Program-made: the position numbers and the translations under genes | The notes under the pieces: generated by a model | What the model was told of the DNA's origin: nothing | The model's input: the letters and a program-made list of their open reading frames with translations, nothing else | The model's database searches: none | From: Brevinematales bacterium | GTDB taxonomy: Bacteria; Spirochaetota; Brevinematia; Brevinematales; GWF1-51-8 | Reading direction: 5' to 3' | DNA: 64,000 nucleotides | Assembly (NCBI GenBank): GCA_020059465.1 | Contig: JAGVBZ010000007.1 | Coordinates: 1 to 64,000 of the forward strand | Part shown: one piece after another, positions 37,816 through 43,036 of the stretch | How the letters are laid out: every line of letters starts with the position of its first letter | How positions within the stretch are numbered: the first letter of the stretch is position 1

Positions 37816-38415
37816 TTGTCTGGCAGCTCTGCGTTAAAATGGGATGAACTTATCCAAAACCATTCCGGGACTATTCCCGCGGTCGTTCAGGATGCCGCGT
37901 CAAAGGCCGTATTAGGCGTTATCAGGATGAATCGCGAGGCTTATGATAAAACTATCGAGACCGGCGGTATAAACCGCATTACGGACGCCGGGACGGCGCT
38001 TTTCAGCATTGACGGGTTAGACTTAAAGCTGAAGAATGTCTCGGGGAATTCCTCAAAAGACGCCCTTCTGATTACGGTGGACGCCGGGCGCGCGGATATC
38101 CTGCATACCCAGTTCGGGGATATCGCCGCGGATAAGTCAGCGGTGTTGAACGATGTTTACGGGGTGATCCGAGAACGGAAGATGCATCCGCCGGAGAATT
38201 CCTATGTGGCGAAAAAACTTTCCGAAGGCATCGACCGTATCCTGAAAAAGGTCGGCGAGGAAGCGGGAGAAGTCATTATCGCCGCAAAAAACGGCGACCC
38301 GAAGGAGATGGGTTGGGAAATGGCCGATCTGATTTTTCATCTGTGGCTCGTGCTCGGATTTTACGACCTGTCCCCCGACATCGTTTACGATAAACTGATC
38401 GAACGCAGGAAGTGA
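37816..38415 (+). CDS. HisE-type phosphoribosyl-ATP pyrophosphatase with degenerate HisI-like N-terminus
   Basis: A 199-residue protein. The C-terminal HisE domain (about 120-199) is well preserved: PPENSYVAKKLSEGIDRILKKV, then EEAGEVIIAAKNGD and EMADLIFHLWLVL carry the metal-binding Glu/Asp helices. The N-terminal half follows the HisI fold: TIPAVVQDAASKAVLGVIRMN and TIETGG are recognisable. However the DCDxD metal motif, the SRSR loop and the zinc cysteines of HisI are missing, with about 12 residues lost. The cyclohydrolase step is therefore doubtful; the pyrophosphatase may be active. Start TTG 37816 follows GGAGGG. Confidence 0.75.
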   Translation: MSGSSALKWDELIQNHSGTIPAVVQDAASKAVLGVIRMNREAYDKTIETGGINRITDAGTALFSIDGLDLKLKNVSGNSSKDALLITVDAGRADILHTQFGDIAADKSAVLNDVYGVIRERKMHPPENSYVAKKLSEGIDRILKKVGEEAGEVIIAAKNGDPKEMGWEMADLIFHLWLVLGFYDLSPDIVYDKLIERRK

Positions 38416-38460
38416 GTGTTACATAATCCCTGATTGAAAAATAAAGTCAGCAGGTGCTGC

Positions 38461-38685
38461 ATGAAGAAACTGATTATCAGCGAAGACCAGATATCCCTCG
38501 ACTATGCCGTGATCGAGGGCGATTCTTTTAACGAAATCGTCTATATCCAGCAGAGGGGAGTGGGGGAGACGATCGACGGTACGGACGAACGGGGCAACGG
38601 GCTGAAACTCCGTATCGATTCGATTATCGATTCCCGGATGGTTGTCCAGATCATGGAAATCATTCCCCCGTCCCTAAACCGATGA
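38461..38685 (+). CDS. Stand-alone paralogue of the RsmE N-terminal PUA-like domain
   Basis: A 74-residue protein that aligns without gaps to residues 1-74 of the following RsmE. Shared positions include Gly35, Ile38, Thr41-Asp42, Gly45-Asn46, Leu48, Ile52, Ser54, Ile68-Pro69 and Arg74, plus similar residues throughout. Residues 1-74 of RsmE are its RNA-binding beta-barrel (PUA-like) domain. The gene overlaps rsmE by 4 bp (ATGA), so the two are translated together. I know of no described stand-alone version, so a regulatory or RNA-binding partner is inference. Start ATG 38461. Confidence 0.6.
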   Translation: MKKLIISEDQISLDYAVIEGDSFNEIVYIQQRGVGETIDGTDERGNGLKLRIDSIIDSRMVVQIMEIIPPSLNR

Positions 38686-39416
38686 GGCGTTTTTTCATTC
38701 CTGCCGAACGAATTGACGGCGGCCGTGTCACGTTCGCCGGAGGCGACTACCATCATCTGATCCATGTGCTAAGAAAACAAACCGGCGATATTATCGAGGC
38801 GACCGACGGATGGGGGAATATTTTGCGGATAAAAATCGGAAGTGCCGGGGCGGATAATATATCGGGCGAGATTATCGGACGGATACCCGCGCCGGAACGA
38901 CGGATATCCCTCACTCTGTATCAGGCCATCCCGAGGCAGGGACTGTTCGATTTTATCATAGAAAAATGCGCCGAGCTTGGAGTCCGGAGGGTCGTACCTT
39001 TGGTCACCGAAAGAACGGTCGTCCGTCTCGCGGAGGAACGCTCGGCAAAGAAGCTCGAACGTTGGCGGCGTATTGCGGGCGAAACGGTTAAGAAGGTCGG
39101 CAGGGCAGATACGATTGAGGTCTTTTCGGTATGCGGATTGCCGGAGATCGCGGGCTTTCTCAGGCCGGAGTCGCTCAGGCTCGCCGCGTGGGAAATGGAG
39201 GATATGAGAGGACTCAAATCCGTCCTGCGGGAGAAGTCAGGGGTTAACGATGTCGAGATCGTGATCGGACCGGAGGGCGGCTTGAGCGCCGCCGAAATCA
39301 GTGTTCTGAACGGGATGGGGTTCGGGAATGTCAGTCTCGGTAAACGTATCCTGAAGGTCGAAACCGCCGCAATCGCGGCGGTAGCCAACATCTTTTACGA
39401 ACTCGATGACGATTAA
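38682..39416 (+). CDS. rsmE: 16S rRNA (uracil-1498-N3)-methyltransferase
   Basis: RsmE methylates U1498 of 16S rRNA with SAM. The 244-residue length is standard. An N-terminal PUA-like barrel (1-74) precedes a SPOUT domain with IEKCAELGVRRVVPLVTERTVV, IGPEGGLSAAEI (the IGPEGG knot-loop motif) and LGKRILKVETAAIAA. All catalytic-fold elements are present. It overlaps the small paralogue by 4 bp and the convergent FlcA-like gene by 4 bp. Confidence 0.93.
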   Translation: MRRFFIPAERIDGGRVTFAGGDYHHLIHVLRKQTGDIIEATDGWGNILRIKIGSAGADNISGEIIGRIPAPERRISLTLYQAIPRQGLFDFIIEKCAELGVRRVVPLVTERTVVRLAEERSAKKLERWRRIAGETVKKVGRADTIEVFSVCGLPEIAGFLRPESLRLAAWEMEDMRGLKSVLREKSGVNDVEIVIGPEGGLSAAEISVLNGMGFGNVSLGKRILKVETAAIAAVANIFYELDDD

Positions 39417-42400
39417 ATACCCTTCAGCAGGTTGGCTTTAAATTCGTCGATAATATCCTGAAGAGTCGTGCGCATCGGTATCTCGTCGTCAAACGCGGGC
39501 TGCTGGTTCTTCATTGCGGGGTTCAGGATATACTTAATGTTGGCTTCCGATTGGGCGTAGATAGTTTTTATCTTGTTTGCGGAGTTTTTCGCCTGATAAA
39601 AGTCGAGGAGCGCGTCCTGTTCGTACTTATCCTTATAAGCTGCGTACTGATAAGCGTAAATCAGGTTCACCACCCCCTTATTGTTATAGCTTCGCGAGAG
39701 TTGGGAGAATATCTCGATATGCCTCTGCAATTCCGGATTGATGTATCCCATCTTCTGGGCGATACTGTCATAGTATTCGATCGCTTTCTCGTACTGGGTT
39801 TTTGCCAGACTGTATTTTCCGGTATGGAAATATGTATTTCCCAAGGCATATGAAAGAATGGGGTTATAAGGTTCGTCGATATACAGGTCCTGCCATTCTC
39901 CGGAGGCCTTTTCATAACTCTTCTCCCGGTAATATAACCATGCGAGATTATACTGAAGGAGAAAATCCTTATGATCCTTCGGCATATAGAAACGCGCGGT
40001 CTTGTAAACCATCAGGGCTTTATTCAACGATTTCTCGGGATCGGGCATCTGCAGTTTGTTATAAAAATAGATATGCCCGAGATTCGCATAGGGTTTGTAG
40101 TAGTAGGGCGCGTAATTGGTTGCGTTTTCAAACTCGTACTTCGCTAATTCAATATTTCTGGGCAGCCCTTCGCTGATATAATAGATCTCACCTCGGAGAT
40201 TGTACGCCTTTCCGTTTTTAGCATTCAGGATAATGGAATTGGAAGCGGCAATAAGCGCGTCGATAAAATTCATATTCAGCGTCAGATAACGCGCATATTC
40301 GTAATACGCCTCGCTGTACAGCATTTTTTTCGGTATCTCGTTGCTCTTAAAGCTTTTTTTATTCTTTTCTTCGGTCTCCACTACTTTTCCCTTTTTTGGA
40401 AGGTTCTGATCAATGTAATCGATCAGTCCAAGGAGTATCGCTTTAGCTTCTTTGATCTTACGGTTGTCGTTATAATAACGGGCGAGCCGGGTCATAACCT
40501 CGACATTGATCGCCTTCGGGTCTGCGGTTGTGATTCTCTGCATCAGGTACTCGATCAGTTCATCGTCTTTTTCACGGATAGCGATTTCGACCTGCCGGAA
40601 CATTGTCCCGATATGCTTCGCGTTTTTCTCAAGGAATTCCTGATAAGTTTTCTTTGCCTCGGTATAATACTTCTTCTGTTCATCAGGATTTGAAATACTG
40701 TCGCCCCATTCGATATATGTCTGACCGAGACGGTCGACAACATCGAATTCGTCGGGTATCTTCTTCTTAAGACTGTTTAGAATGGCTGCGGCTTTATCAT
40801 ATTTCTTCGGATAAACTGTTTTATAATATTCCGCGAAATTGAAAACCGTGAGTTTATCGAGAGGTTTTTCCTGCAGCGCCTGGAGGAATTTTTTCTCTGC
40901 GAGCTGAAATTCGTTCTTTTCAAGATAGGCGATCGCATAGCGGTTATACCAATCCATATCCGGGCCGCCCTTATTCACGCCCTCGGTAAATTTCGCTTCG
41001 GCGACAATATAATTACCTTTCTTCAGCTCTGCGATACCGTCTTCATAAGAACGGCCGGCGTTTCCGGGAACCCATACCAGGCGCCAGATTAAAATGGCGG
41101 CGATTAAAAGCGCGCCGAAAAACATAGCGGCGTATTTTGTAATGTTCTGGAGTTCCTTCTGGAACTCCTCCGCTTTTCGCGCCTCTTCCGTGAATATCAC
41201 ACGGCGGGTCTTCGGTTTCGGTACCTCAGGTCGTTCTTCGATTTCCTCTTCTATTTGAATCTGGTCTTCGGGTACGTTCTGTTTGATAAAGAGATTGACC
41301 GTTTCTTCGGGCTGTTCCAGAATAAGCATCGCGACAAGTTGTTCCAATATTCCCTTGGGGAGCAGCCGGTCTATAAATATTTTTCTGAGTTTCTTTCTAA
41401 GGTCGGGATCGCTGAACTGGTTGATCCGGTTCCTTAACCGGAGAGTTTTCGATTCATCGAGGTCGATTTCGGGTTCGCCGGCATAAGGAGACCTTGCCGG
41501 GGTAGAAACCGAAGGCTCTCTCAGCGGCGGCTGGGAGATCGACGGTTCCTCTTCATCATGGATTTCCTCGACTTCATCTGCGCCCCCCGCATCGAACGAA
41601 GGTTCCGGGAATTCCATATCACCGGGTTCTCCGAAGGATGATAAGTCGGGAGTATCGCCGCCGATTTCCGGCTCCTCAAACACCGGGAATTCCGGCATTT
41701 CCGTGCCGGCTTCCGGCTCCATCAGCGCCGAGAGATCGTCCTGCTGAGGAGTCTCCGTCTCTGTTTCCATAAACGCCGTAAGGTCTTCCTGCGGGGCGGT
41801 ATCCGTTTCCATAAACGCACTGAGATCGGGCTCGGAGGTTTTTAACTCGGATGGGTCTTCCGTACCGAAGTCGGGCATCTCGAAGGATTCTTCAGGGAAT
41901 ACTGCGCCCCCGTCTTCTCCCATTTCGGGGAATCCGGCCAGCATGGAATCATCGGATGCTGCGGGCAGTTCCGGGCTATCGCCGGGAAATGAGGGGTGTG
42001 AATCGTCGAAAAGGGCTTCAAGTTCGCCGAGACCCGCTTCCTCGGTTGAAAGGTCTTTCCCGGGTTCCTGCGGTTTTGCAGGGGCTTCCGGCTCGAGCGG
42101 GGGTTCGCCTATATCGACGATAGGTTTGCCGGGTTCTTTTTCCTCGTCTCCCATCTTAGCCTGGGAAAGCAGATCGGAGAATTCGCTTTCTATCTCGCTG
42201 GGAGCGCCGCCCGGTTCTAATCCGCCGATGTCGCCGAAATCGTATCCGCCCGATGCTTCTTCGCCTTCCGTTTCGGTCTGATCGAAATCGAAGGACGATT
42301 CCCCGCCATGTTCGGCGGCCGTTTCGTCCATAATATCCTGTATCAGATCCTGCGGCCCTCCGCCGGATTGAAAACGCTTATGCAGGTCTTCGAGGGACGG

Positions 42401-43036
42401 AGGAATCATATCAAGATTTTCTATTTCATCCAATACTTCTTTATCGATTTCAGGCACCGGGGTATCCGGGATGACAGTCTGCGGCGGTGCGGCAGGGGCC
42501 GGCGACGGTGCGGAGGCTGCAGCCGGGGGCGGAGGGGGGGATTTTTCTTCCGGGGCGCCCCACGCCTCGTCGGAGAATACATCGCCGGTGTCCTTTTTTT
42601 CCGGCGGGGGGGCTGGGAACGGATCTTCGCCGAATGCGGCGAAATCCTCATCAATAGTCTGCCCGGAATCTTCCATTGTAAGCGCGCTGTATTCGGACAG
42701 GTCGTCCATCTGGGAAGGAGGTTCGGATTCTCCGCCGAATTCTGAAATTTCATCCATTATTGAGGCGGGTGCGGATTCTCTCCCGATAGGCATATCCGAA
42801 AGCTCGTCAAGTGACGCTGCAGGGGAAGGCGCGGGAGCTTTTTTCTCTTCCTTGCCGGATGTGGCGGCATTGATCAGGCTGTCGAGATTATCCCAGCTTT
42901 CGGGATTGATTTCCTCTTCGGAAACAGGCATTCCTGATTCTGCATTCTCTATCCCGTCGAGTTCCATATTTAGATTATTGGGATCGAATTTATTCTCATG
43001 ACCTAAGAATTTTAAAAGAAAATCGTATTTACCCAT
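39413..43036 (-). CDS. FlcA-like TPR membrane protein
   Basis: A 1207-residue single-pass protein. Residues 1-500 are acidic, rich in Pro, Ala, Glu and Ser and probably disordered. Residues about 525-600 form a conserved-looking helical block (LRKKLRKIFIDRLLPKG), followed by one membrane helix near 640-660. The C-terminal half has at least seven TPR-like repeats (WYNRYAIAYLEKNEFQLAEKKF, LAWLYYREKSYEKASG). The architecture matches the spirochete flagellar collar protein FlcA (BB0326 in Borrelia), a stator scaffold. I cannot confirm orthology from sequence by eye. It overlaps rsmE at its end. Confidence 0.55.
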   Translation of the reverse strand: MGKYDFLLKFLGHENKFDPNNLNMELDGIENAESGMPVSEEEINPESWDNLDSLINAATSGKEEKKAPAPSPAASLDELSDMPIGRESAPASIMDEISEFGGESEPPSQMDDLSEYSALTMEDSGQTIDEDFAAFGEDPFPAPPPEKKDTGDVFSDEAWGAPEEKSPPPPPAAASAPSPAPAAPPQTVIPDTPVPEIDKEVLDEIENLDMIPPSLEDLHKRFQSGGGPQDLIQDIMDETAAEHGGESSFDFDQTETEGEEASGGYDFGDIGGLEPGGAPSEIESEFSDLLSQAKMGDEEKEPGKPIVDIGEPPLEPEAPAKPQEPGKDLSTEEAGLGELEALFDDSHPSFPGDSPELPAASDDSMLAGFPEMGEDGGAVFPEESFEMPDFGTEDPSELKTSEPDLSAFMETDTAPQEDLTAFMETETETPQQDDLSALMEPEAGTEMPEFPVFEEPEIGGDTPDLSSFGEPGDMEFPEPSFDAGGADEVEEIHDEEEPSISQPPLREPSVSTPARSPYAGEPEIDLDESKTLRLRNRINQFSDPDLRKKLRKIFIDRLLPKGILEQLVAMLILEQPEETVNLFIKQNVPEDQIQIEEEIEERPEVPKPKTRRVIFTEEARKAEEFQKELQNITKYAAMFFGALLIAAILIWRLVWVPGNAGRSYEDGIAELKKGNYIVAEAKFTEGVNKGGPDMDWYNRYAIAYLEKNEFQLAEKKFLQALQEKPLDKLTVFNFAEYYKTVYPKKYDKAAAILNSLKKKIPDEFDVVDRLGQTYIEWGDSISNPDEQKKYYTEAKKTYQEFLEKNAKHIGTMFRQVEIAIREKDDELIEYLMQRITTADPKAINVEVMTRLARYYNDNRKIKEAKAILLGLIDYIDQNLPKKGKVVETEEKNKKSFKSNEIPKKMLYSEAYYEYARYLTLNMNFIDALIAASNSIILNAKNGKAYNLRGEIYYISEGLPRNIELAKYEFENATNYAPYYYKPYANLGHIYFYNKLQMPDPEKSLNKALMVYKTARFYMPKDHKDFLLQYNLAWLYYREKSYEKASGEWQDLYIDEPYNPILSYALGNTYFHTGKYSLAKTQYEKAIEYYDSIAQKMGYINPELQRHIEIFSQLSRSYNNKGVVNLIYAYQYAAYKDKYEQDALLDFYQAKNSANKIKTIYAQSEANIKYILNPAMKNQQPAFDDEIPMRTTLQDIIDEFKANLLKGI

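Follow-up and report, generated by a model that had tools for sequence, protein, structure and literature searches.

A stand-alone paralog of the RsmE N-terminal domain, encoded in overlap with rsmE in one genus of Brevinematales

In one genus of uncultured bacteria of the order Brevinematales, the gene for the 16S rRNA methyltransferase RsmE is preceded by a small overlapping gene, here called X. According to profile comparison and structure prediction, its product is a genuine paralog of RsmE's N-terminal PUA-like domain and represents a novel form of this known domain. X was identified in a window of 64,000 nucleotides, i.e. the whole stretch of DNA analyzed, whose relevant features are collected in Table 1. 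The reading that we favor, at about even probability, is that X is a genus-specific accessory or modulating protein that would be made with RsmE and would act on it, presumably through physical binding.

Table 1. Features of the X-rsmE locus; positions are counted from the first letter of the window.
Feature	Position	Strand	Remarks
HisIE-like protein, ancestral upstream neighbor of rsmE	37816..38415	+	HisI half decayed, HisE half intact
Shine-Dalgarno-like AGGTG before X	38452..38456	+	anti-SD duplex -7.7 kcal/mol
Gene X, 74-aa stand-alone RsmE N-terminal PUA-like domain paralog	38461..38685	+	homology, selection, 4/4 genomes of the genus
Helix-1 region, X residues 20-36	38518..38568	+	RsmE D.HHLxHVLRK becomes.FNEIVYIQQRG
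ATGA overlap of X stop and rsmE start, 4 bp	38682..38685	+	kept in 4/4 genomes
rsmE, 244 aa, complete	38682..39416	+	PUA-like and SPOUT domains, GPEGG motif
RsmE residues 47-66, beta4-beta5 hairpin	38820..38879	+	weak in the genus

The open reading frame of X encodes 74 amino acids from an ATG; an alternative TTG start nine codons upstream would extend the protein to 83 residues. The gene that follows encodes a complete RsmE (Pfam Methyltrans_RNA 4e-38, PUA_4 1e-6) that scores above the cut-off for TIGR00046 and whose best-matching PDB sequences are RsmE structures. The original prediction that X aligns without gaps to residues 1-74 of this RsmE was confirmed. All the residues it had listed are common to both proteins, several of them (among which Thr41, Ser54 and Arg74) not being conserved across the X and RsmE families. 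The common core consists of M1, I11, G20, G35, D42 and I52, with I6, L48 and I64 nearly invariant. X and the window RsmE are identical at 16 of 73 positions and two-sequence BLASTP found no match between them, so that profile methods are required to detect the relationship. Their BLOSUM score was reached by none of 20,000 shuffles. Profile-profile comparison of the four X orthologs with RsmE by hhalign gave 98.6% with a score of 72, as compared to a maximum of 18.8 for shuffled columns (0 of 200 shuffles reached the observed score), and the result was unchanged (98.5%) when the genus's own RsmEs were left out. Genome searches with X returned, apart from X orthologs, RsmE N-termini only. Against the RsmE models of NCBIfam, each of the four X proteins gives a weak match (best E 7e-4), and none of the four matches Pfam, PUA_4 (PF20260) included, at the gathering cut-off. 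X ends at residue 74, without the C-terminal SPOUT knot, the GPEGG motif and the AdoMet site; it is therefore not an RsmE but a paralog of the N-domain only. A second RsmE, broken by a split or a frameshift, was ruled out because no SPOUT remnant follows X and the full RsmE begins immediately.

The predicted structure agrees with this relationship. The AF2 model obtained from X sequences alone (two sequences) has a pLDDT of 74 and comprises strands at residues 15-19, 37-42, 47-56 and 59-68 and a helix at residues 22-30. The top 18 PDB matches of this model all belong to the RsmE family (prob 0.99-1.00, TM 0.59-0.72), the E-values being only 2e-3 and weaker. The fold comparison proposed with the original prediction thus came out in its favor, X being modeled with the RsmE N-domain fold, as did the profile searches, which relate X to RsmE N-domains and find it conserved next to rsmE. 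For the window RsmE, a model likewise built on two sequences was poor overall, with a pLDDT of 49; only the register of its secondary-structure elements was used, which is that of X.

All four genus genomes carry X, each time with the 4-bp overlap. Nine further genomes of the order encode rsmE but lack X. Among the matches listed, from which the weakest were left out, a profile of both families detected the RsmE N-domain in 178 of 393 Spirochaetota genomes and no other stand-alone copy, which makes the coverage of the phylum good though incomplete; short RsmE N-domain frames in G083 and G110 lie at contig ends and were rejected as stand-alone genes. Pattern scanning of 84,980 species, which is sensitive to close relatives only, gave one match, and no X was found in phages, plasmids and viral contigs, which leaves a mobile origin unsupported. 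As far as tested, X appears restricted to one genus, the coverage beyond Spirochaetota being that of the close-relative scan. Outside the genus, in families f2 and f3, hisIE is directly followed by rsmE, and within the genus X lies between the two. X branches within the RsmEs of the order (support 98/92) on a long stem of about 2 changes per column. The tree gives no preference between a duplication slightly predating the genus ancestor and one inside it (support 26/0), and a constraint uniting all the order's RsmEs apart from X was not rejected (p-AU 0.34). X arose a single time inside the order, between hisIE and rsmE, and its simplest source would be a tandem duplication of the rsmE 5' end. 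In the scenario proposed here, this 5' end would have been duplicated once in the genus ancestor and have become a separate small acidic protein.

Fast change on the stem followed by strong constraint is expected of a protein taking up a new role. Such a role could be with an unrelated partner or a small ligand, adjacency to rsmE being then a relic of the tandem duplication. This is rather unlikely, although it keeps some weight, since the adjacency and the 4-bp overlap persist in all four genomes despite the insertion of a gene upstream in G003, where it separates the HisIE-like gene from X and leaves the X-rsmE pairing intact.

The genes flanking the pair have features of their own. The HisIE-like protein has no PRA-CH (HisI) match and has lost the CHT..SCF cysteines, the YDCD site and the LW.KGETSG motif. 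Three of the four genus genomes encode, at another place, an intact HisI on its own, e.g. G000:C3:28378-28599 (L077), and none was found in G001, which is 73% complete. A decayed HisI domain thus stays fused to HisE. The HisIE-like gene of a relative is located at L014:3738-4337. In two relatives the HisIE-like gene is preceded upstream by a DUF3800 gene (L002:665-1405 and L014:2927-3667, in the latter between lpxC and the HisIE-like gene). The DUF3800 gene is absent from the window, in which lpxC and the HisIE-like gene are separated by a short stretch only. On the other side, rsmE overlaps by 4 bp with a convergent gene (39413-43036, minus strand) conserved in all four genus genomes; its product of 1207 aa has a long N-terminal part that is acidic and rich in proline, a hydrophobic stretch resembling a single membrane span, and TPR repeats.

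Judging from substitution patterns, X is under purifying selection and varies less than the N-domain of RsmE itself. Its dN/dS is 0.08-0.23 versus 0.18-0.31 for the RsmE N-domain, its amino-acid identity among the four genomes is 65-92% versus 54-84%, and 46 of its 74 residues are invariant. A decaying fragment or an assembly artefact could be suspected from the small size of X and its position under the Pfam gathering cut-offs. The chance of either is negligible, as X is intact in four separate assemblies, at the identities given above and with dN/dS well below 1.

The 4-bp gene overlap that had been claimed is real, the X stop and the rsmE start at 38682 overlapping in ATGA. The Shine-Dalgarno duplex before X amounts to -7.7, -7.0, -3.3 and -7.9 kcal/mol in the four genomes; the site is weak in G002 and clear in the other three. 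No such site precedes rsmE in the same genomes (+0.7, +0.7, +0.7 and -2.2 kcal/mol), and the rsmE genes of six relatives without X have their own Shine-Dalgarno-like site (-3.3 to -10.7 kcal/mol). A Shine-Dalgarno on X, none on rsmE and the ATGA overlap suggest termination-reinitiation; rsmE is probably translated through X, so that RsmE would be made only after X. Ribosomes would bind at the Shine-Dalgarno of X, complete X and start again at the ATGA, and both proteins would thereby be co-produced in a fixed order. The same arrangement in all four genomes is also what is expected if X were retained mainly as a translational coupler, i.e. if the duplicated 5' end had taken the Shine-Dalgarno and rsmE depended on X translation whatever its product. 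A coupler requires no conserved product, yet the product of X is strongly constrained (dN/dS and invariant residues above), and we consider this explanation improbable. It remains a point against the accessory reading that upstream coupled genes can persist for expression or for an unrelated partner.

The changes that distinguish X from RsmE were located by position-by-position scoring against 45 other RsmE N-domains. The helix-1 block scores 4-9 bits in X against a mean of 38, which is lower than in all 45 comparison RsmEs. At the position of RsmE His25 (window numbering) the X proteins carry E, E, D and S, and at that of the universal Arg31 they carry Q. They are strongly acidic, with a net charge of -4 to -7 and a pI of 4.2-4.6, whereas all 51 RsmE N-domains compared lie above pI 4.6. 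In Lpg2936, the N-domain is held to the SPOUT domain by helix 1 and strand 1, with conserved His29 and Tyr9 (PMC5699498), which were mapped by alignment to H25 and F5 of the window RsmE. X lacks the residues matching both, so any contact with RsmE must involve a different surface, and the role of competitor, one of those first envisaged for X, is disfavored in its plain form, in which X would displace the N-domain from the SPOUT domain. Helix-1 loss and acidity together make it unlikely that X takes the place of the N-domain there or binds rRNA in the same manner. X had been presented as the RNA-binding domain of RsmE: fold, homology and adjacency stand, but the RNA-binding label is not supported for a protein with these two changes, which also make a role as protein partner or regulator more likely than one as a second RNA binder.

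RNA binding is common among PUA-like domains. It has been reported for the RsmE domain itself (PMC9508554). X keeps the fold and shares an operon with an rRNA enzyme, and it could therefore be an independent RNA- or ribosome-binding protein that recognizes another RNA or 30S site and is merely co-regulated with RsmE. The loss of the universal Arg31 and of most of helix 1, together with a pI and a charge unlike those of all 51 RsmE N-domains, makes this an unlikely account.

The beta4-beta5 hairpin is retained in X (15-18.5 bits, mean 18.8), with Ile55 and Val62 kept. In the genus RsmEs this hairpin scores at the 9th percentile, Ile55 being replaced by A, T, A and V and the hydrophobic residue 62 by Gly in all four, and helix 1 is normal. 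Helix 1 is thus gone from X and beta4-beta5 retained, whereas in the genus RsmE helix 1 is retained and beta4-beta5 weakened. From the sequences, this complementary change is suggestive but does not prove contact, the weakening of the RsmE hairpin being moderate and the sample consisting of four genomes. With its signature helix lost, its acidic character and its strong conservation, X resembles a dedicated helper or brake of RsmE rather than a spare RNA binder. In the accessory reading, X would be a subunit or modulator dedicated to RsmE, helping or braking either the enzyme itself or its complex with the 30S subunit, and would contact protein, e.g. the basic RNA-binding face of the RsmE N-domain or its altered beta4-beta5 hairpin, and not helix 44. 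The bolder proposal that X is the first dedicated regulator or subunit of RsmE, an acidified domain completing or blocking an altered N-domain with structural features split between the paralogs, is conceivable but doubtful.

Two further residues of RsmE vary in this order. Residue 44 (38811-38813) is an invariant Trp in the genus (DGWGN); the RsmEs of other families of the order lack this Trp, and X has Arg or Lys at the position. Residue 225 (39354-39356) corresponds to the catalytic Arg (Lpg2936 Arg225, E. coli Arg223), whose Ala mutant is inactive (PMC5699498). Lys replaces it in G005 and in three of the four genus RsmEs; family f2 and G008 have Thr. Given these substitutions, catalysis by RsmE may be altered in this order.

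RsmE was reported as a family of orthologs only, with no detectable paralogs in almost 12,000 genomes (PMC4119055). No precedent for X was found in the literature on stand-alone PUA or PUA-like proteins, non-catalytic partners and RsmE paralogs. To our knowledge, RsmE has been described as a homodimer without helpers. If X is indeed a coupled and conserved single-domain paralog, it would show in nature how a methyltransferase can acquire a control protein through duplication of its substrate-binding domain, and it would offer a handle on the contribution of the RsmE N-domain to 30S subunit recognition.

Among known systems, X is closest to the N-domain of RsmE itself (m3U1498 methyltransferase; TIGR00046, PF20260 PUA_4 with PF04452), with which it shares the fold, the gapless register and G20, G35, D42 and I52. 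It descends from the order's RsmE but, unlike it, has no SPOUT domain, no HHLxHVLR motif and is acidic. Trm6, in the Trm6-Trm61 complex, is a non-catalytic paralog that serves as subunit or modulator of an RNA methyltransferase. The idea is similar for X, a non-catalytic paralog made with its enzyme, whose binding is predicted; however, Trm6-type paralogs include the catalytic domain, whereas X copies the substrate-binding domain only. The MCT-1/Tma20-type factors are small stand-alone PUA or PUA-like proteins tied to the ribosome. X resembles them in size and fold but, in contrast to these factors, derives from RsmE, has lost the most conserved residues of the RsmE N-domain and is acidic.
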